A stretch of 64,000 bases of DNA from Sialis fuliginosa (Eukaryota > Arthropoda > Insecta > Megaloptera > Sialidae). A model generated the notes under the pieces. That model did no database searches. It had not been told where the DNA came from and was given only the letters and a program-made list of their open reading frames with translations. The translations under genes and the position numbers were made by a program. The stretch lies in NCBI GenBank assembly GCA_961205875.1, contig OY540809.1, forward strand, positions 28,470,267 through 28,534,266. The letters are read 5' to 3'. Of the stretch, positions 1,041 through 61,684 are shown piece by piece (the stretch's first letter is position 1; each line of letters begins with the position of its first letter).

Positions 1041-1235
1041 TGTTATATTTCATTGAAAAAAAAATTATGGAAAAAATTAACGCGACCAACCAAATCTTCT
1101 CTTGGCCTTGGTTTTAGTCTTGTCTCAATCACGTGTATGAGACGAGACCGGCTTCAATTTTCACGTGACAAGACTATCAGTTATAAAGTTTGAAATTGAG
1201 ACGAGACAAGATTTATCTCAATATCGTCTCGTCTG

Positions 1236-1545
1236 TTATTGATCGCATTGGCTTCCGGAAACAAAACACACACTGCAATGGCTGATGTAGAATGTGTGCA
1301 CGTTGTGTGCCCCCAGTTGTTTATACGCCGGACACGGTCGTGTTTTACACAAAACCGTAAACCCGCGACAAGTCACTGCCGCGAACCTGCTCCTTGTTAT
1401 TGATTGACACCTGTCAAACAAACCCTGTTGTACTGACGTGCAACCACCTGCCACAGTCCACTGACAACGGTGCATTTCACTTATTAGATTTGTACAGTAA
1501 CATATGAGTCGTCCTAGTGGCCAGCTAATAAAATTTTTGCAGCCT
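1236..1545. other. GC-richer island of unknown role
   Basis: About 300 bp are clearly richer in G+C than the surroundings. A 108-codon minus frame (1562-1236) is open here, but its product, rich in Cys and Ser, resembles no family I know. The 1090-1235 flank contains opposed GTCTTGTCTCAAT/ATTGAGACGAGAC segments, suggesting an inverted-repeat element boundary. It could be an old exon, a regulatory island or the inside of a transposon. Confidence 0.3.
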
Positions 1546-1639
1546 TTTTGGCATTTTTTCAATTAATGGAATCATAGGCAATTATTATGGTAAAACCGTT
1601 TATTGCTTGTAAAAGAATATTTTTTTTAATTATACAACT

Positions 1640-2127
1640 ACCATTACACTTATTAATAGGAAATATGCCCCCTTTGGCTTCAATAACTACTTTTACTCGT
1701 TTTGGCATGGACTCTACTAGTTTTTGACAGTTTTCAGAGATTCTCTCATCCCTGAATGACCGCTTCTATCATCTTTGTTTTTGTAGTGCAGTCGATTTTG
1801 CACAGTCTAGCTTTGCAAATGGCCTATAAATTCACAATAGGGTTCAGATCGGGTGAATTCCCGGGTTAATCTACAATAGAACCGGAAATATTTCAACATT
1901 TCCTTAGACTTGTGGCAGGGAGCATAGTCCTGTTGAAGAATTGCTCCTCCTTGGAGTTGATACTTTTCAAGTTCTTTGTTCAAATGGTGTTCCAACATCG
2001 ATTTGTATTTTTGGCTGTTCATGCCTTCGATTGGCACCAAAGATCCAACCCCCCTGTATGAAAAACACCCCCAAAACATTACATGCAAAAAATGCAAAAA
2101 CATCATAATGATTCCATTAATTTGCAC
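1640..2127 (-). pseudogene. Decayed Tc1/mariner transposase, C-terminal half
   Basis: The minus-strand frame 2127-1807 carries VMFWGCFSYRGVGSLVPIEG and ILQQDYAPCHKSKEM, the region of the Tc1-like DDE transposase that includes the second catalytic aspartate (QQD.AP.H). After about residue 85 the frame is scrambled; PDLNPIE-type residues with the third acidic position are not recognisable in frame. Downstream, about 1760-1640, other frames keep the family's tail (ESMPKRVK..I.AKGG). There are stops, frameshifts and no N-terminal DNA-binding domain, so it is a dead 5'-truncated copy. Clean terminal repeats were not found. Confidence 0.85.
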
Positions 2128-2677
2128 AATACTGTATGAAACAGAATTTCAAATTTAAATACAATTTTAAAAACATTAGCGGATAATACAAATAACTCCA
2201 GCATATCCCTCATTTGCTGCAACAACGTCATAACTCAAAAATTGTGATTTTTCAGATGATATGTTTCAAGTTTTGAATTGGTATAACCTTATATGATAAT
2301 TTTCAAATATATTTATGCTCTCTCGAAGTTAGTTAAAGAAGCTGAGATATATCGTTCCTGCTGTATAAAGTACATGTATGAATGTTTTTTCCTGTATAAA
2401 CAACTCAAAAATAGCAATTTTTGAGTTGTTACGTTTTTACAGCAAATGAGCGATATGGATCTCATTGTCAGTACTTATGTATTCAATTCTAAAATTTGGT
2501 TTCATTGGTCTAATTGTTTATTTAACTACATTTATTGCAAAATAAGTTTCGCAGTCCTCATTATGAGCCTATTTATTACATTTAAGAAATTTTAGCCAAT
2601 CAACATTACCATTTATTTTTTAACCGAATTCAAAAAAGAAGGAAGTTCTTAATTCAACGCGTATATTTATAAGGGTG

Positions 2678-2978
2678 TTTTTACTTCCATGTTCTGAAGG
2701 AAATGGAAGTATTGTAATACCTTCGAAAAATCGTGTCCGAGCTAATGACAGATTCTGATTGTACTAACTTCAAAACGTAAAGAAAAGTTACTTTCCGCAT
2801 GGCGGCTGTGCGTGTGTCTGTGTGTCTGGATGTAGAATTTTTTTTCGTTCACGATAACTACTGTAAAAATCCACTGATCTGAATTATTTTTGGGAAAAAT
2901 GTTTGTTTCAGTGAGTACACCAGACCTATTGATTTTGGTGCTAATCGAATTAGAGGTTTTGGAAATATTCGAAATTTT
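2678..2978 (+). repeat. Dispersed 300-bp repeat, copy 1
   Basis: Aligns over its whole length with 6697-6995 in the same orientation. Both begin TTTTTACTTCCATGTTCTGA, share TTTCCGCATGGCGGC and CGTTCACGATAACTACTGTA, and end in an A/T tract. The ACTTCCAT...ATGGAAGT start can fold as a small hairpin. No ORF; family unknown. Confidence 0.75.
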
Positions 2979-2979
2979 G

Positions 2980-4690
2980 TAACGTACTCATTGTCCGTTT
3001 TATTGCGTATCTCCCCTCCATACTAGTAGCTAACAATATTACTGCTTTTTTAAACAAAATAATATACACAATCCGCTGGAAGACGTTAAAAATTGCATTA
3101 CTGTTAACAGCAGTTGTCAGTTGACGGTGCGCCGCAATTGTAGTTCAGCAGTACCTATATAAAAACTGCACGTGTAAATGCCAATATTCATACATAAATT
3201 TCATATCATTTTTACCTCGAACTTGTATACGATCTATGATGGACTCGACATTCTTGCGCAGCCAAAGAAAAAAACTAACAACTTCGCGATATTTCCTAGA
3301 AAATCTTGTACACATTGTTTGAAATTCCTGTTCAATCTAACGTGTGTATTACTGCAGTTCATATCCGACATATGAAACACACGCACAAATATGTAGGTAC
3401 TCAAACCAGCGCCGGATTTATCATTATAAGCTACCACCTTGAACCCTGTGGTTATATTTGTATTACTTAATAATATATTCTAGTTAAAAAAAAAAACTAA
3501 AAAATACGCTTGTGCTTATTGTTAGCTATCGAAGAGTCCCTATGACCACCTCTACCATCATACAAGCTCGATGGAACCATATTATCACCAGAATTGCATA
3601 AGTTTTAAATCGATACGACAATTAGAAGTGGGTGAAAAGCGAGTTGTAAAATTTGTTAGGAAGTTACAGGTTAAGTAAAAAAAGCGTGTAAAAAATACAC
3701 ATAACATTCTTAAGTATAGAAAAAATAAATAGTTTAAAAATTAATAAAATTTGAAATCTCTTCTTTCCAGTGCTTCTTACATATAAAAGTTTCAATAGAA
3801 AAATGTCATCATAAAAATATCAAAAAAATCCTCAATTTCACATTACTACATACCGTAGCGATTCTCAATTTTTTAAAGATTTTTCATAGTATCCTAATAC
3901 TCGTGTTTGTTTTTTACTTTTTTTATAAACAATCATAAAAATGGAATGTCACTGATGTAATGTTTATAAAAATAAGATAAATTCGTTTGATGAAAGTGTT
4001 AACGAACTGTTTTGACTTACATTGGCTCCACATTTGTAATAGTATTTAGCTTAAGGTACTGCATTACCTAAATCCAACCCTGACTCAAACATCCTTCACT
4101 ATCGCAAATGTTTTGGAATCTTAACGTAAGTTAACAGGTCGACAAAATTATAAATAATATATTAAAACAAGACTTTAGTGCCTATATGTGTGATCTATAA
4201 AGGTGTTGTGTAAAGTTAATTCCATATTCGTTATTATTATATTAAACTCGTAATTATAATATAAAACTATAAATGTAACGTATTTCAAAATCGATTAATG
4301 CCCGCGTGACTGACAACTCTAAATACACATCCCTACCACATAGGCACCCCCTGGGGCTATTTTAAGGAAATCTTAGAACTGCACAATATGAGTGAAAACC
4401 AAAAAATGTAATTGTCGACTTCAATTTGCACACAGCACTTTTGGATAATATATTTAGACTTAATTGTAATTATGGACATAACACATAAGTATGCAAAACG
4501 CATATGAATATTAGGTACCTACATAAAAATATCTGCTGAAATCACTCACTACTATTAGCTCTAGCTCATACGACGTACCTACACTATTGATATACTTGTA
4601 AGAAAAAAAATAAAAATGTAAGTATTTGAATTGCAATTCAAACTCAGCTATTATACTGCTACAATGAAACCGACTTATTTGGCGTCAAGG
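2980..4690. other. AT-rich interval, no gene recognised
   Basis: Contains small overlapping frames only (at most 67 codons). Neither their codon use nor their product looks like a known protein. Homopolymer tracts such as poly(A) at 3487 occur. No transposon ends identified. Confidence 0.4.
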
Positions 4691-4763: not shown

Positions 4764-5052
4764 AATGTACTCGAGTACACGGAAATATACCCGAGTACAA
4801 GAAAATATACTCGAGTACATGGAAATGTACTCGAGTACATGGAAATGTACTCATGTACACGAAAATGTACTCGAGTACATTTGTGTACTCGATTACATGG
4901 AAATGTACTCAAGTACACGGAAATGTACTCGAGTACAAGAAAATGTACTCGAGTACACAAATGTGCTCTAGTACATTTGTGTACTCAAGTACATGGAAAT
5001 GTACTCAAGTACACGGAAATGTACTCGAGTACAAGAAAATGTACTCGAGTAC
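4764..5052. repeat. 20-bp satellite built on palindrome GTACTCGAGTAC
   Basis: About 14 tandem units of roughly GGAAATGTACTCGAGTACAC, period 20. Most carry the perfect 12-bp palindrome GTACTCGAGTAC with a central CTCGAG. A higher-order unit of 96 bp occurs twice, starting at 4877 and 4973. The palindromic unit leaves frames open on both strands with peptides such as MYSSTWKC repeated; these are by-products, not genes. Confidence 0.95.
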
Positions 5053-12398: not shown

Positions 12399-13391
12399 CT
12401 ATGATGAATGTTTATTGACAGACAAGTAAATCCCCAATGAAATCGCACCAATAAATGCAAACCCGACAACATACAGCACTACCCTCTGTTGAATTGAACG
12501 CATTATCATCGAATTCATCAATCGCGATGATCGGCTGAGTTCCACATCAGCTTCTCTCAACTGTAATAAATATAAACAATTACATTTTAAACTTCTACTA
12601 TTACATAAAAATTCTTGCCAAGAAAAATGTATAACCATTAAATATTACATCTGTAAATACTTACTCTTCCCCTAGACCTTTGTATAGTTTCTCTCTGTGC
12701 ACTTAAGTCATGTAACACATGCGTTCCTATTTGCTCTGATTCCAACAAAACTCTATATCCGTGATTTAACTGATTTCCGCTACGTTCTATACGTTCCGAA
12801 TTATCAAGAAGCCTGCGCTTTTGATCTTCTGTTAATCGTACTTCTGTGTATTCGTCCATCGAGTCATATCCGCCTACAATATTTGATGACCTAGCATTTG
12901 AAAATTCTTGACAAAGCCGTTTCAATTCACTTCGATAACAATCTAAACGCGAACGGTATCTTTGTCTCTGTGATGGGTCCACTTCACGTACCTCAAGTTC
13001 CATTTGTTCCAACTAAAATTGAGTGTTACGAATTATTTTTTTTATGAATACAGTATGATAAAAAAATATTCGCTACCGCATCTTACCAATTCCTGCGCTT
13101 CATCAACATGTTTTTCAATTTCTGATATAAATGATCGTTTTTCATCTAAAAATGTAATAGAAAACATAGTTATTTAAATAGGTACCTAATATAATCTATT
13201 CTTGAACGTTAAGACGTTTTTTTGGAAAACGAATATGAATTATAAAATTACAGAATCGGAAAATTTCTACTTTAAAATTATAAAACATATATTTTACCTG
13301 ATGTTGCAATATTAAGTCGTCCAATTTGTGCTGTAATTTCAGCTGTAAGAACAGCATATTGTTGTTCATAGTTGTCAAATAACGTCGCCAT
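12399..13391 (-). CDS. Vti1a: Vti1a-type Qb-SNARE, four coding exons
   Basis: Vesicle-fusion SNARE of the Golgi/endosome system; in this family it supplies the Qb helix of four-helix SNARE complexes. Coding exons on the minus strand are 13391-13298, 13145-13087, 13012-12665 and 12560-12399, all joined at GT-AG boundaries with matching frames, giving 220 aa (human VTI1A is close to this length). An N-terminal helical domain occupies roughly residues 1-100. The SNARE helix covers about 128-190, with family-typical stretches LLDNSERIERS, ESEQIG, LSAQRETIQR and LREADVELSRSSR. A C-terminal membrane anchor spans about 194-213, followed by a seven-residue tail, as in tail-anchored SNAREs. The ATG at 13391 starts MATLFDNYEQQY, close to the family N-terminus. 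The sequence resembles Vti1a more than Vti1b. It is head to head with RpL34. No frame damage is seen. The 3' end is not defined; no canonical AATAAA is obvious just downstream. Confidence 0.93.
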
Positions 13392-33456: not shown

Positions 33457-33930
33457 TGTCATGGGAGCCACGGGACTTTCTTATACGGAATCGTGACAGT
33501 GAACAGTGTACGTGACTCTTAATTTATTAAAACAGTACATTTCTGATAAACTAATAAAAGATAAAATAAAATGAATGGGACATAAACTATAGATAATATT
33601 ATTCTCTACATTATGTATCAAATGAATATTTTGAACGTTTTAACAGAAAACGGATGTTTACTCTTGTCAATTTTTGAATTTTCGAATTATTTTTAAAATA
33701 AGAAAAAATATTTTAGATAAAAAATGTCGAGTATGTTATTATCTATAGTTTATTCCCTACATTTTTTTCCAACACATGATTTAGCCAGAAAGAATTTTTT
33801 TATATAATAATTTAGACTCATCGACACTTTTCTCTCTCAATATTACATATAAGAAAGTCCCATGGTACCTATAGCTAGCACGCACACTGTTCAAACTCTG
33901 TAATACGTATAAGAAAGTCCTATGACACTC
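33457..33930. repeat. Foldback element, about 475 bp
   Basis: GTCATGGGAGCC...GGGACTTTCTTATACG on the left is mirrored by GTATAAGAAAGTCCTATGAC on the right. Inner ATAAACTATAGATAAT (33583) is mirrored by ATTATCTATAGTTTAT (33738). A further pair, CGGATGTTTACTC.TGTCAATTT (33652) and its complement at about 34100-34120, partly interleaves, so two elements may overlap. Confidence 0.6.
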
Positions 33931-35178: not shown

Positions 35179-35487
35179 AGTTGAGGAAAAACTTATAGAT
35201 CTGACGTGATCAAATCAGATCTCGATAGATATGCATTTTGAGACAAGATCATATTTGTTCACTGTTTTTTTAAGACCTGCAAAGATCTACAAAGATCTCT
35301 GAAGATCGTTGTAAAATTTATGAATTTTTAACGTTTGAATCTCTATCACGATCTACAACGATACAATTATTGTAGATCTTTGCAGGTCTCCACAGACCAG
35401 TGAAAAAATATGATTTTGTCTCAGAATGCAGATCTATTCCAGATCTGATTTGATCACTTAAAATCTAATTTTTTTTCCCGAGTTATT
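35179..35487. mobile_element. AGATCT-rich inverted-repeat element
   Basis: Arms of about 120 bp: GTGATCAAATCAGATCT on the left and its complement on the right, then GAGACAAGATCATATTT and GACCTGCAAAGATCTACAA mirrored inward. AGATC motifs recur throughout. No ORF. A non-autonomous foldback/MITE. Confidence 0.75.
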
Positions 35488-41001: not shown

Positions 41002-42346
41002 TATAGGGTGTCCCAAGACTGTGTCAATGTTCAATATTTCATTTATTATAACAAATGGAAAAAAACTTTAAATACAAAAATTGTCAGGATAGACAAGCAG
41101 CATATTTTAAAAATAGTTACATTCACATAGGATGTCCCATAAGTGCGTTACAAATCAAAATTATGTTTTTTTTAAATACAATGTATATATTTTTGATTGA
41201 TAATCTAAAAACATTTATTCTTTTGGATATTTTGATATAAGCATGTGTGGGATTATAACGAACGGTTTAAAAATTATCACCATTTTTGTAAGAAAATTGG
41301 TATATTTTCAACACCTTGTAATTTTCTAATTACAAAAAAAACTGTTTTCTCCTACAAATAGTTTTGGCATATGTTCTATTATTGCGATATTACATTCTTT
41401 GTACAAGGTGTATCAAAACTCTGAACTTAATTTTTTTCAAAATTTTCAAATAGAACACCCTATATATTTTCACATTTTCGAATTGCCTATTCTATTCTTA
41501 ACACATTTTACAAACAATGTTCTATAGGTTTAATTTCTTAATATGACATATTTCACACTACGAATAGTCTATACGAAATAAAAAATCTATCTATCTATCT
41601 ATCTATACCTAAATCCATCCGTTAAAAAGTTATTTGAAGATTTAATTTTATTTGAATGATAGGTCATGGACATTTTGAACAAAAAAAATTAACTTTTGTG
41701 TATCATTTTGTTTATTTAATTTCTAAATTTTCATGTTATTGATGTTTGTAAGTTCTAGCAAATTGTTTTATGGATTATAATAAAGTTGTATTGTATTTAT
41801 AAAACATGTTAAGATTTTAAAAATCTTCAAATAAACTTTTTAAAGGCTGGATTTAGGTATAGAACATAGTTTATAAAATGTGTTAAGAATTGAATAGGCA
41901 ATTCGAAAATGTGAGTTTTGGTACACTCTGTACAAAGAATACAATTTTGTAAATGTTTGATATAATATCGCAATAATACAACATATGCCAAAACTATTTT
42001 TAGCAGAAAACAATTTTTTTTTTAATTAGAAAATTATAAGGTGTTATATACCAATTTTCTTACAAAAATGGTGATAATTTTTAAACCGTTCGGTATAATC
42101 CCACACATGGTTATATCAAAATATTCAAAAGAATAAATGCTTTTAGATTATCAATCAAAAATATATACATTGTATTTAAAAAAACATAATTTTGATTTGT
42201 AACGCACTTATGGTACACCCTATGTAAATGTAACTATTTTTAAAATATGCTGCTTGTCTATCCTGATAATTTTTGTATTTAAAGTTTTTTTCCATTTATT
42301 ATAATAAATGAAATATTGAACTTTGACAGTCTTGGGACACCTGTAT
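41002..42346. mobile_element. 1.34-kb palindromic (foldback) element
   Basis: Ends GGTGTCCCAAGACTG and its exact complement CAGTCTTGGGACACC. Arms of roughly 550-650 bp are inverted copies along their whole length (for instance AGACAAGCAGCATATTTTAA at 41092 and its complement at 42240; GAATTGCCTATTCTATTCTT at 41480 and its complement at 41890), separated by a spacer of under 200 bp. A (CTAT)n tract at about 41587-41607 lies in the left arm only. No ORF beyond repeat-driven frames. Confidence 0.85.
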
Positions 42347-45551: not shown

Positions 45552-45916
45552 GTCACGTTCACGACTGACCAAAAACAGTGAACAACGAGCTTTGATTAAT
45601 TGATTCATGGAATTTCTGGTTGATTGTACCAGAAATTTAAAAAATGTCATTTTAAGCGTGTCAGGAAGTGAGAAAGAAGTAACTAGAAAGAGATAGAAAC
45701 AGTGACCAGGCTAACCAAAGAACTTTTATGTTCACTTCATGTTGAGCGTTTCTGTCAGAATATTAGTTTCTATTTCTTTATGGTTACTTCTGTCTCACTT
45801 CCTTACAAGCTTACAAAATGACATTCTTTAAATTTCTGGTACAATACACCAGAAATTCCATGAATCAACCAATCAAAGCTCGTTGTTCACTGTTTTTGGT
45901 CAGTCGTGAACGTGAC
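45552..45916. mobile_element. MITE with about 135-bp inverted arms
   Basis: Left arm from GTCACGTTCACGACTG at 45552, right arm ending in its complement at 45916. Matches continue through AACAACGAGCTTTGATT, TCATGGAATTTCTGGT and CACTTCC. The frame 45818-46075 starts in the right arm and is not a gene. Confidence 0.85.
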
Positions 45917-47079: not shown

Positions 47080-48084
47080 TTTATATAAAACAGATGAATT
47101 GTAATAAAAAACTATATAGCAAATATCTCACAAATGGATCGTTAACACTTGTATCGGCATGTTTTCCGTAATAATAACGTGTATCTCTACGCATGTCGAC
47201 ACAATAAAACGAACAAACCTGTTAACATGAGGTGTAGCGTAGGTGTTCATATGGAAATGTCAACCCGAGAGGCTTCTTGGTTATTGCTCTCGGCTCGTGG
47301 GTGAGCGCGCGTGGTCGAACCCCGGTACAATATTTCGGTTTTTAATTCAATTTATTCAATAGCCGTTTAATGGATGTGGACGTCAAGTGCGTTGTTTACA
47401 CGTCTTCAATTTATATTTAAAGATAATGGTTTGATTTTATGGGTATGTTTGACTTACCAGTTTTGGAGTTTGGAAATTTTTTATTTTTTTTTAATTGGGG
47501 AGTTTCTTTTTATTTTAAATTAAATTTAAACTGTAAGAAAAATATTCTGATGGAATTCTACTAAAAATGGAGTTACTTGTTTTGGCATCTGAACAGTTTT
47601 TAATATTACCATAATGATTATTATAATTGATGGGAAGGTCCATATAGAAAAAAAATACCTATAAAACAATTTGAGTAAATCAAAATTTTCTGACACTTTC
47701 ATTACATATTATTGTATATTTAATATATTAATATACCCCACGCTGTCAATTTTGTTAATTCCTTAAAAAATTCTATCTCTACATTATCGAAGAGGCGCAC
47801 CCATAAAATTGATTTAAAATTTTACGCGAATTTCGAACAAATAACTAAAAATTTCATATTTCTAGTTATGCCCAACCTATAGTCTGCGAGCCAGTTTAGA
47901 ACTTTTTTAATCTGGCCCACCATTAAATATTTAATTTTTTTTATATTAACAATAAATTTAAAATCTACACTAGAGGTAAGTCACATCATAGTTGTAAGTG
48001 TAAATAACATAAAATATGATGACTTAATTAGAACAGTCCGGAATATCAATAATAATTAGCACACCCAAAGCATACTATGCTTTG
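47080..48084. other. Interval with a GC-richer stretch and a hAT-like remnant
   Basis: Bases 47260-47330 include GTGGTCGAACCCCGGT (B-box-like, no full tRNA). At 47873-47935 TAGTTATGCCCAACC and CTGGCCCA recall hAT ends. No gene. Confidence 0.3.
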
Positions 48085-48751
48085 CAGTGCACTATGGGCC
48101 AGGATACCCTGTTCTGTGGCCAAAAGTCTACTTTCGAATTTGAGAAAACGAATTAGACCACTGAATTCGGTATTAATTGAAGTAGTTATGATGACAATTA
48201 CATGTTGATTAATCAATTCCTGTTCAAATGACAGGGGCGCAAAGTTGAAAAATGTATAAAAAAAATTATGTTACTGTCGCTAGTAAAATGTAATATTTAT
48301 TGTAAAGTCATAAATTTCAAGCCGTATATTTGGATTATTTCATTCGTGGAAGTTCAAAAATTATTTTAAATGTCACATGAATGCGTTATTTTCAGTTTTA
48401 CTGAAGTAAAACCACATTTTTAGTATAAAAAACAAGATTTTTCAGCAAAGCACCTGCTGCCGATTGCGAATACCGAAAGATACCGCCTTGTATTAAGTAA
48501 TGAGACCCACAAATGTCTTCTCTAGGATGTGCACTTTAGCCTAGATCTGCCCCTTTTTGCCCGTTTTCATTTGCTTGACTGTGAAACTCTTCTAAACGTA
48601 CAAGAATGATATGTACAATGTACAAATTTATTTCACATTGTATAAACGAATATAGTACTACGAGTGTACAAACTTTCTCTGGACCGTGAAATTTGAGGGG
48701 TGTCTTCCTTTTATGATCCAAGCACCCATTAAGAAAATATTTTTTTAAATA

Positions 48752-49400
48752 CAACCCCTACGGGGTAAAAAGGGGTGTAAAATTTTGAATGGGAAAATAT
48801 TTTTTGGTTGGATTTACTTGAAACTTAAAATGAATACTCTATAATACAAATAATGAAACTAGTATTTACATAAGTATTTCCCAAAATTAAACTACTAAGG
48901 GGTGCAAGGGGGTGGGAAAGTTTATATGTCGAAAAAAATTTGTTTGTACTCACTCGAATGAAACATTGCACACATATTGTACAAGACAAATAGCATTTTC
49001 GAAAATTCAACCCCTAAGAGATGGGAGGGGGGGGGGTTATTGGTGTTTAATTTTTTAAAATTATGATATATTTATTTACATATTTTTTACGATATTAAGG
49101 TAAATTCGGACAAAATAATATTCAATTAAAATTAAAATTTCAACCCCTAATAGCGTAAAAGGTGGACGAGGGTGGGTTTTTGATAAGTTTATCTTCATAG
49201 TTTCTTTAGTTATACAGGTGAATTTGGACAAAATAGTCTTCCATAAAAAAAAAATAGACACTCAACCCCTAATGGCCCGGGTAGTCAGTGGGTGGGTTTA
49301 TGCAATTTTTAACTAAGATCCAAGATATTTACAATTATTTATAGGTAATAAAAAATTAAAAAATTATATTTCATCCCTTGTCACGGATAAAGGGTTGCAA
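48752..49400 (+). repeat. Tandem array, about 128-bp period
   Basis: CAACCCCTA-type blocks followed by GGGG(T/A)-rich sequence recur at about 48752, 48887 (variant), 49008, 49141 and 49263. Units are diverged. Small minus frames over this array are by-products. Confidence 0.65.
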
Positions 49401-49489
49401 TTAGTTTCATTCATAGTGTTACAGCGAAACTTTGTTATGGATTGTTGTAAGATTCTTATTTTTTACACCGCGTGCTTACCCTTATAAAA

Positions 49490-49880
49490 TTAATTTTATT
49501 TAAATTGGATAACTTTTGAAATATCTTGGTCGCCATATTGGATCCGCCATTTTGAATTTTTAAATTTTATAAAAAATTGAAATCAGCGTCCCAATATAAC
49601 CTTATAAAATGAATTTTATTAAAATCGGATAACTTTTGAAATATCTTGGTCGCCATATTGGATCCGCCATTTTGAATTTTTAAATTTTCATAAAAAATTT
49701 GAAATCAGCGTCCCAATAAAACCTTACAAAATGAATTATATTTAAATTGGAGAACTTTTGAAATATATTAGTCGCCATATTGGTTCCGCCATTTTGAATT
49801 TTTTTATTTTTATTAAAAATTTGAAATCAGCGTCCAAAAAAAACCTTATAAAATGAATCTTAATTAAAACGGATAACTTC
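49490..49880 (+). repeat. Tandem array, 120-122-bp period, 3.3 units
   Basis: CTTATAAAAT starts units at 49491, 49611, 49723 (CTTACAAAAT) and 49845. Each full unit contains CGCCATATTGG(A/T)TCCGCC ATTTTG and GAAATCAGCGTCC. Units are about 85-90 % alike by eye. Confidence 0.9.
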
Positions 49881-49926
49881 TGGACTTTTGGCCATAGAAC
49901 AGGGTCTCCTGGCCCATAGTGCAGTG

Positions 49927-53890: not shown

Positions 53891-53957
53891 GAGTCATCCA
53901 TAAATTACGTCACATGTTAAGGAGGGGGGGGGGGGATCTACAAAGTTTGACGTTAAA

Positions 53958-54612
53958 TAGGAACATATAGTTTTTATTAAGTAATCATATTCTACGTGAA
54001 TGAACACGAATCTTTCATTGAAAATTTTTTTTTGAAAAACCCAAATTTTCCAAGGTATCTAACAAAAAGAAAAAAAATAATTCGAGATTTTGAACTTTTT
54101 TTACTCAGAAACCATAAACTTTATAAAAAAGTACAAGACACAAAATAATTTTATTTTGGTCTAATAAAGCATGGAGAATTACTTTAAAATTTTTTTTTCT
54201 AATTATTTTATTTTAGGAAAAACAAAAAAAAATACGAAATGCTAAAAAAAATTCTAAAATAATTCTCCAAGTTTCATTAGACTAAAATAAACATTTTTAG
54301 TATCTTGAACTTTTTCTCTAAAGTCGATGATTTAAGAGCAAAAAAATCATGAATGTTCAAAATCTCGAAATTATTTTGTTAGATATCTTGTAAAATTTAT
54401 ATTGTTCAAAAAAAAATTTTCAATGAAAGATTTGTGTTTTTTCACGTAGAATAAGATTACTAAATAAAAACTATAAGTTCCTATTTAAAAAAATGATGTT
54501 GACAATTATATATTACTGCTCGATTACCCCCTCATAACCAAACATTTTTTTCAAATATGCGATGGTTCTGAAATAATAATCTGTAACAGTTTAAATGCCC
54601 CACCCTGTATAA
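53958..54612. mobile_element. Foldback family, copy A
   Basis: Inverted arms 53958-54235 and about 54245-54485: TAGGAACATATAG/CTATAAGTTCCTA, TTTTGAACTTTTTT, GGAGAATTA/AATTCTCC. The right side continues through ATTACCCCCTCATAACCAAA to a CACCCTGTATA end. Copy B at 60891-61532 has the same organisation. Confidence 0.8.
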
Positions 54613-57709: not shown

Positions 57710-58533
57710 CAGTCGGGACTCGTTTATTCTAAGCCATCTGAATCGTTTTGAATCGAGGTAGTCGCGTTTATTCGAAGTCGAGAGTGGCTCCCACCATGTT
57801 ATGTACTTGACCAATCAGCGTTGGCACGGGAATTGACGTCACCACGAAGATGTATTCAAATGTTATAAATGTATAATAGAATATTAATTACAAGAAATCC
57901 TTTATTTATTCTTGTCTTCGTATTTTTTGATATTTTAACACCATATACAATCAAATAAGTACAAATTCGACATTGCAAAATCATGAAAAAGCTATCACAG
58001 ACAATTTTGTCTATTCGAGAAGTGTCATTTTTACTATTCTTAAGTTGGCAATACGTTATGTGGTTCTGACAGCTCTTTATGATTTTGCTATGTCGAATTT
58101 GTACTTCTTTGATTGTATGTGTTGTTAAACAATACAAAAACAAGAATAAATGAAGGATTTTTTGTAATTGATATTCTATTATACATTTATAACATTTGAA
58201 TACGTCTTCGTGGTGACTTCAATTCTCGCGCCAACGCTGATTGGTCAAGGAGCTATAGAGACTATGTATGTAAACCTTGATATTTAATATTTATCGTTAA
58301 CAGTTAATCGTGATAGTGAAATAATTTTACTTTACTTTTAATTTCGAATATGAGCAAGGTGACGAGTGACGACGGTGATAAGTGTATCTAATTAATTCTA
58401 CAAAAAATTCAAAAATATGTTCGTTTACGCCATGACTCGAGAATGGTGGGAGGTGAAGGAGGAGAAAAAATTTCGAATAAACGAAACTCGATATTTCAGA
58501 TAACCGAGACTTAGAATAAACGAGTCCCGACTG
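57710..58533. mobile_element. Foldback MITE with pogo-like ends and TA duplication
   Basis: Ends CAGTCGGGACTCGTTTATTC and its exact complement, with TA on each side (57708-57709, 58534-58535). Inside, about 57805-58000 and 58045-58250 are long inverted arms (ACCAATCAGCGTTGG, GTCACCACGAAGA, GTACAAATTCGACAT mirrored). The minus frame 58143-57856 spans the hairpin and is not a gene. Confidence 0.88.
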
Positions 58534-60319: not shown

Positions 60320-60885
60320 TACATAGTTGACCGATGCCATATAAGCTTTAAAATATCATGTACGAATATAAAAATTAATTATATTTGTTATGTAGTACTC
60401 GTATGTCCAATCGTTCCAAGCAAAGTAAAACAGTGGTGGAAGTAGAAATTATCGTATTTGTTCTTTGAACGGGAACTTTTACTTGTTTGCGATAAATTTT
60501 ATTATTTAATTATCGCGCAATTTCTTTTGAACGTATTGTTTCTGATTTTATTACAATGGAGAAAAAATGTACGTAAAGTAAAAAAATTACAGTTACACTT
60601 AAATTTTCGCCTCACGTAACCGATAAACTTGCATTATCTTTATACTTTATTATTTTTGCAATGCATATTTCAAATAACATTACTTGTAAAACAACTCTAT
60701 AAAAATACATACTGTTTTGATCTGATCTTATCAATTAACATAAAATCATAATTAGTTGCTTCTGTATTTATATTAACTAGTTTTGGTTGTGACTTATCGC
60801 ATAAATGATTAGGATTTTTATCCATTACAACCAAGGGGAGAGTGAGAACATAAAAATAATGATATGTAATACTATACATATAGGA
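60320..60885. other. AT-rich interval, nothing recognised
   Basis: No ORF or element end seen. Confidence 0.4.
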
Positions 60886-60890
60886 ACCTA

Positions 60891-61532
60891 TATTTCTTAT
60901 TTAGTAATCTTATACGAATATTTTATTGAAAACTTTTTTTGAACGACCTAAACTTTATATGATATCTAACAAAATAATTTCGAGATTATAAACATTCAAG
61001 ATTTTTTTACTCAGAAATCATCAACTCTAGAGAAAAAGTACAAAATACAAAAAATGTTTATTTTCAATTAATGAAACTTGGAGAATTATTCTAGAATTTT
61101 TTTTTACATTTCGTTTTTTTTTTTTTTAATAATTCTTCAAGCTTTATTAGACCAAAATAAACATTTTTTGTATCTTGTACTTTTTTTCTAAAATTTATGG
61201 TTTCTGAGTAAAAAAATCTTGAAAGTTCAAAATCTCGAGTTATTTTGTTAGATATCTTGGAAATTGATTTGTTAATAAAAAAAAGTTTTTAATGATAGAT
61301 TCGTATTTTTTCACGTAAAATAAGATTATTAAATAGAAACAATAGGTTCCTATTTTAAAAAAATGATGTTGACCTTCAAATATCCTTAAAAGCCACGTTA
61401 AAATAATAAATAAATATTACTATTCGATTACCCCCTCACAACCAAACATTTTTTGGTTGGAATATTTTTTTTCAAATATGCGATTGTTCTGAGATATTAA
61501 TATGTAACACTTTAAATGTCCCACCCTGTATA
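60891..61532. mobile_element. Foldback family, copy B
   Basis: Arms from TAGGAACCTATAT at 60891 to AATAGGTTCCTA at 61352, then the same right tail as copy A ending CCACCCTGTATA at about 61532. Confidence 0.8.
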
Positions 61533-61684
61533 ACGAAAACAATATTTTCTTAATACAAGAATATACTCTTATAATTCAACTATATTATTGTTTCTCTTTA
61601 AAGCAATATTGTCGGAGGAAAACAATAATATATTTGGATTAGGAGTATATTCTTATACATATTAAGAAAATATTGTTTTCGTTA
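61531..61684. mobile_element. 154-bp hairpin MITE
   Basis: TAACGAAAACAATATTTTCT at 61531 is mirrored exactly at 61684; arms of about 60 bp (GAATATACTC.TATAAT/..AGGAGTATATTC) surround a short loop. It abuts the end of foldback copy B. Confidence 0.8.

Follow-up and report, generated by a model that had tools for sequence, protein, structure and literature searches.

Which transposase moved an element of 1,832 bp that lies between two identical pentamers in the genome of Sialis fuliginosa? The question is raised by the 64,000-nucleotide stretch of contig OY540809.1 analysed here (the window), in which an earlier note had read the terminal inverted repeats (TIRs) and the target-site duplication (TSD) of this element as those of Transib. 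Based on the structure of the element, on a comparison of its copies across the genome and on the sites into which these copies have been inserted, we propose that it very probably belongs to a young family of non-autonomous Transib elements.

The element and its surroundings in the window

The element occupies positions 48090-49921 of the window and has the ends CACTATGGGCCAGGA...TCCTGGCCCATAGTG (Table 1). Its TIRs agree at 37 of 39 positions. Extending the comparison to 41 positions gives 38 matches, and this recount, together with the CACTATG start and the CAGTG pentamer on both flanks, bears out the description in the earlier note. At either end, 23 bp separate the heptamer from the A-rich block CCAAAAGTC. 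When the whole window was scanned for inverted pairs starting with CAC (first six bases exact, at most three mismatches in 15, a spacing of 60-8,000 bp and exact 5-bp flanks), this element was the only such pair returned, while the same scan on 20 first-order Markov shuffles returned none. Taken alone, the window copy allows its border to be read also with a 3-bp AGT, a 4-bp TGCA or a 2-bp GC, TA or AT, and the probability that chance alone places a repeat of at least 5 bp at one of the symmetric borders within 3 bp is about 0.008.

Table 1. Features of the element and its flanks, in window coordinates.
Feature	Position	Strand	Basis
Left TSD, CAGTG	48085-48089	no strand	flank comparison; copy comparison
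Left TIR, 39 bp: heptamer CACTATG, 23 bp, A-rich nonamer-like CCAAAAGTC	48090-48128	+	
Interior, non-coding, without detected tandem arrays	48129-48738	no strand	repeat, Pfam and Rfam scans
Array A, degenerate units	48739-49314 (limits approximate, taken from the repeats detected)	no strand	repeat families D3, D5, D6, D8
Array B, 122-bp unit	49480-49879	no strand	tandem-repeat scan; repeat families D1, D2
Right TIR, 39 bp, identical to the left TIR at 37/39 positions	49883-49921	-	
Right TSD, CAGTG	49922-49926	no strand	flank comparison

The interior had been described as consisting only of tandem arrays. This does not hold, as no array was found over about 610 of its 1,754 bp, roughly a third, and the first of the two arrays is highly degenerate. 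Array A is composed of units of about 118-137 bp around a AACCCCTAA...GGGG motif; one 37-nt core is present in four copies, the other three being 62-70% identical to the reference copy, and is accompanied by related pieces. Array B comprises 3.3 copies of its unit with 90% matches and extends to the right TIR. Read from stop to stop, the six longest frames (59-73 aa) of the window copy have no match in Pfam, and Rfam gave no match across the window at gathering thresholds. The arrays are best seen as passengers of the element. To call them an unusual cargo, as the earlier note did, is overstated: such a cargo is not new in kind, because reviews, in the excerpts available, already describe satellite-like arrays inside non-autonomous transposons, with miDNA4 of Xenopus as an example. 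The latter is likewise a DNA transposon with satellite-like repeats, but belongs to Tc1/mariner. Satellite-like repeats are also tied to a DNA transposon in the MITEs of Donax, a likeness drawn from a title alone, and in Tetris, where it is drawn from a title and the opening of an abstract.

Palindromes that resemble miniature transposons are densely packed around the element. The palindromic repeats at 53953-54488 and 60880-61539 are related to each other, with a likeness of about 70-75%, and the former, when read as 53957-54484, has TTAA flanks as in piggyBac-type miniature elements. Further long inverted-repeat structures occupy 41007-42341, 57806-58249, 45552-45916, 35185-35478 and 33468-33865; no convincing target duplication was found at these five sites. 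A partly palindromic 20-bp unit with GTACTCGAGTAC is arrayed in 14.8 copies at 4764-5052, and a 113-aa frame on the minus strand (1810-2148) resembles, by eye, a remnant of a Tc1/mariner transposase and has no Pfam match. Host genes are represented by a Vti1 SNARE exon (12641-13012) and by an exon for ribosomal protein L34 (14182-14490), which matches Pfam Ribosomal_L34e and has its best solved match in chain 4v6w_Cg, from a Drosophila ribosome. Both exons identify the window as nuclear DNA of an animal, in all likelihood an insect. Finally, a perfect 19-bp palindrome, CAAAGCATACTATGCTTTG (48066-48084), adjoins the left duplication of the window copy. We rejected it as a feature of the family: it lies near the target in one of 38 copies with both ends, and palindromes with arms of at least 8 were absent near the target in the other 37. 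It could be due to chance or could be the repair footprint of an earlier hairpin-forming excision.

A recently spread family with 5-bp duplications

The genome (392 Mb, 20 contigs) was searched with the first 116 bases of the element, and the best 40 of 230 first-look candidates, ranked by left-end similarity and including the window copy, were compared. This ranking under-samples older copies and makes the conservation of the left end partly a product of the selection; the right end, which was not directly selected, is conserved as well as the left one. Both ends are present in 38 of the best 40 places, the window included, with lengths of 1,448-1,891 bp.

The copy comparison fixes the borders of the element. 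In the window copy a TA stands beside both inner ends, and one could therefore imagine a Tc1/mariner-type element that begins at TGGGCC and is flanked by TA, the outer CAC..GTG being a coincidence of the target. This reading, to which we assign a negligible chance, is refuted because CACTATG belongs to the conserved repeat at both ends of all 38 two-ended copies, whereas the bases outside it differ from copy to copy. An exact 5-bp duplication flanks 36 of these 38 copies and is the longest exact repeat in each of the 36, which settles the ambiguous border of the window copy. The two remaining copies have no exact flank repeat, three of five bases differing in L028 and two of five in L050. Duplications of 2, 3 or 8 bp in other copies, which the earlier note had named as grounds for refutation, did not appear, nor did any other length.

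The same count bears on the relatives of Transib with shorter duplications. Mirage elements make 2-bp and Chapaev elements 4-bp duplications. For EnSpm a duplication of 3 bp is given in the excerpted literature, which also describes the CMCT clade, Transib included, as having mostly CA..TG termini and TSDs of 2-5 bp. The first five bases of our element are indeed CACTA, and an origin from a CACTA/EnSpm, Mirage or Chapaev element would account for them. Yet, a repeat of 2-4 bp is the longest one in none of the 38 copies and all 36 duplications measure 5 bp; this length strongly contradicts such an origin, which we regard as highly improbable.

The copies are young. Their mean pairwise divergence, counting substitutions only among two-ended copies, is 3.1%. 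When they are split at a distance of 3% from the consensus, a group of 30 and a group of 8 copies result, with mean pairwise divergences of 2.1% and 3.6% within the groups, respectively, and 4.8% between them. The window copy and copy L026 differ by no substitution over 1,832 aligned columns, while residing at different loci with different TSDs, and several pairs of copies at separate loci are substitution-free. As copies at different places can be free of substitutions in this way, the family has moved recently.

The two of the 40 places that lack a full pair of ends deserve mention. L045 is a family copy broken by an insert of about 1.85 kb, and the fetched stretch ends within the copy. The insert (1215-3060 in the coordinates of L045) has inverted ends of its own (TAGTACGTCTGG...) and is flanked by TTA or TA; a reading of L045 as an expanded array was rejected. 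At L055 the match is confined to the first 530 bp of the element. It was considered as an autonomous parent and dismissed, as inspection by eye of the 7 frames of 70 aa or longer in 3,552 bases of this place revealed no transposase.

Target-site preference and the responsible transposase

The 36 duplicated sites share a marked preference. Over the five duplicated positions C occurs in 26, A in 28, T at the fourth position in 27 and G at the fifth in 31 of the 36 sites, the middle position accepting any base. The full CANTG is present in 15/36 sites, compared with 0.3% of window positions, and the sites match CCANTGG at a mean of 4.22 of 6 positions, compared with 0.75-1.5 when the motif is moved to 14 other positions of these flanks. 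The preference continues outward: the fifth base leftward is C or T and the fifth base rightward G or A in 32/36 sites each, and the sixth base out is T in 24/36 sites on the left and A in 27/36 on the right. The profile obtained by pooling both strands, and hence symmetric by construction, approximates TTYaCaM-CANTG-KtGtRAA and weakens past 9 bp from the centre. The stricter possibility that every single site is palindromic in itself was not supported. Opposite bases pair in 24 of 36 sites at distance 1 (22.2 predicted) and in 21 at distance 2 (22.9 predicted), which is about what the separate columns predict. Because the halves pair no more often than that, the preference is one for two half-sites and not for perfect palindromes.

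We lean towards the view that the transposase of this family recognises a target of about 19 bp, TTYaCaM-CANTG-KtGtRAA, instead of 5-7, preferring the core CA..TG together with C/T at -7, T at both -8 and -9, and the complements on the opposite side. If so, elements may insert repeatedly, and in both orientations, at a single site of another repeat. When all 60-bp flanks were compared, different copies matched in 11 cases, five of them long (33-60 bp) and six of 20-25 bp. The long ones comprise those of two pairs in opposite orientation, L026/L040 and L037/L050, which match on both flanks, and a match of L028 to L043 on the left flank. The TSDs of L026 and L040, CATTA and TAATG, are reverse complements; L037 has the TSD CTGCG and L050 the left flank CGCAG, likewise its reverse complement. 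These pairs point either to repeated insertion, in both orientations, into a single site of another repeat or to elements that were inverted where they stood. Among the pairs with long flank matches, only L026/L040 have both members in the 36 counted sites.

Ends, duplications and target can be set beside those of known systems. Transib ends follow a heptamer-like pattern, CAC(A/T)(A/G)TG, and the ends of hopper and transib2 are of the CAC type. CACTATG fits this pattern at both ends of all 38 two-ended copies, in line with Transib TIRs beginning with CAC (PMC7204232). According to the excerpted text of PMC3276498, hopper and transib2, both Transib elements of D. melanogaster, make a 5-bp TSD (532/533 hopper sites and 7/7 transib2 sites) at the target CCANTGG, and the present family has the duplication length and the target in common with both. 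The TIRs of hopper and transib1-4 measure 33-45 bp in the available part of PMC10299278, a range that includes the 39 bp found here. The present elements differ from hopper and transib2 in their length of 1.45-1.89 kb; the window copy carries tandem arrays, and Pfam matched none of its six longest frames. For hopper a 7-bp motif is reported, compared with a preference of about 9 bp on each side of the centre here, but the excerpted hopper logos stop 3 bp past the TSD.

Several points count against Transib. One is the spacer between heptamer and nonamer-like block, which is 20-22 bp in symmetric Transib ends, and 12/23 in a few asymmetric ones, according to the part of the review available (PMC8355894); at 23 bp, the spacer in our family is one base longer than in the symmetric ends. 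Another is Hztransib of Helicoverpa zea. As excerpted from PMC1852546, it is an insect element with TIRs and a 5-bp duplication as here, but has a length of 3,518 bp, encodes a 489-aa transib5-like protein and is recorded at a site, GCTCG, that departs from CANTG. There are, moreover, the two copies, among 38, in which the duplication is absent. As Hztransib shows, CCANTGG is not shared by all relatives, and this is further illustrated by RAG, for which the excerpted literature gives GC-rich targets such as CGCCG. Since CCANTGG is common to two Drosophila families and absent at the one recorded Hztransib site, target choice would seem to be characteristic of a Transib lineage.

Taken together, the CCANTGG target, the 5-bp duplications and the CAC-type ends leave a Transib enzyme far ahead of any other explanation, and in the main the reading of the earlier note is supported.

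The ends of hAT elements often begin with CA, as do the TIRs here, and the main rival is a non-autonomous hAT5-type element, moved by a variant of the hAT transposase that makes 5-bp and not 8-bp duplications. Elements of this type with 5-bp TSDs are known to us from a title (reference 31 of PMC12730594), and the duplication length in 36/38 copies fits them. The target core, however, speaks against hAT: CCANTGG is the target of hopper and transib2, while hobo, the sole hAT element in the same table of the excerpted PMC3276498, makes an 8-bp duplication at GTNCGNAC. The ends, too, fit the CAC heptamer pattern. A hAT5 origin is consequently disfavoured by the target core, and we consider it unlikely.

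For the preferred Transib reading, we infer that the enzyme is, or was until recently, encoded in this genome. The 39-bp ends, with their CACTATG heptamer and inner A-rich block, would be bound by a Transib transposase that is supplied from another locus and cuts exactly before CAC. The two ends would then be joined to opposite strands, 5 bp apart, of a symmetric target with a CCANTGG core, and this staggered joining would give rise to the 5-bp duplication.

Novelty of the family and its meaning for Transib

Searches outside the host brought little. A phage search returned nine records, each covering just 1-3% of the query, and a 15-base end piece matched eight viral contigs, which we take as chance; longer end pieces had no match in the viral contigs or genome contigs of the collections searched. 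The literature was searched by end sequence, array motif and CCANTGG, few of these searches being able to reveal the family, and no printed description of it was found. An 11-base end matched six papers, all of them unrelated by title, and the array motif had no match.

In summary, this is a new family of a kind already known. Its one new detail is a target preference that spans about 9 bp on each side of the centre, and it is otherwise an ordinary transposon family. Transib transposases are close relatives of RAG1, and the many near-identical copies of a young family leave a clean natural record of the ends and targets that such an enzyme selects. A Transib strand-transfer structure has been published (PDB 6PR5, cited in the excerpted PMC11844651), with which the wider preference can be compared. 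If the transposase indeed reads about 19 bp, each subunit would contact the target well beyond the duplication, one half-site each.
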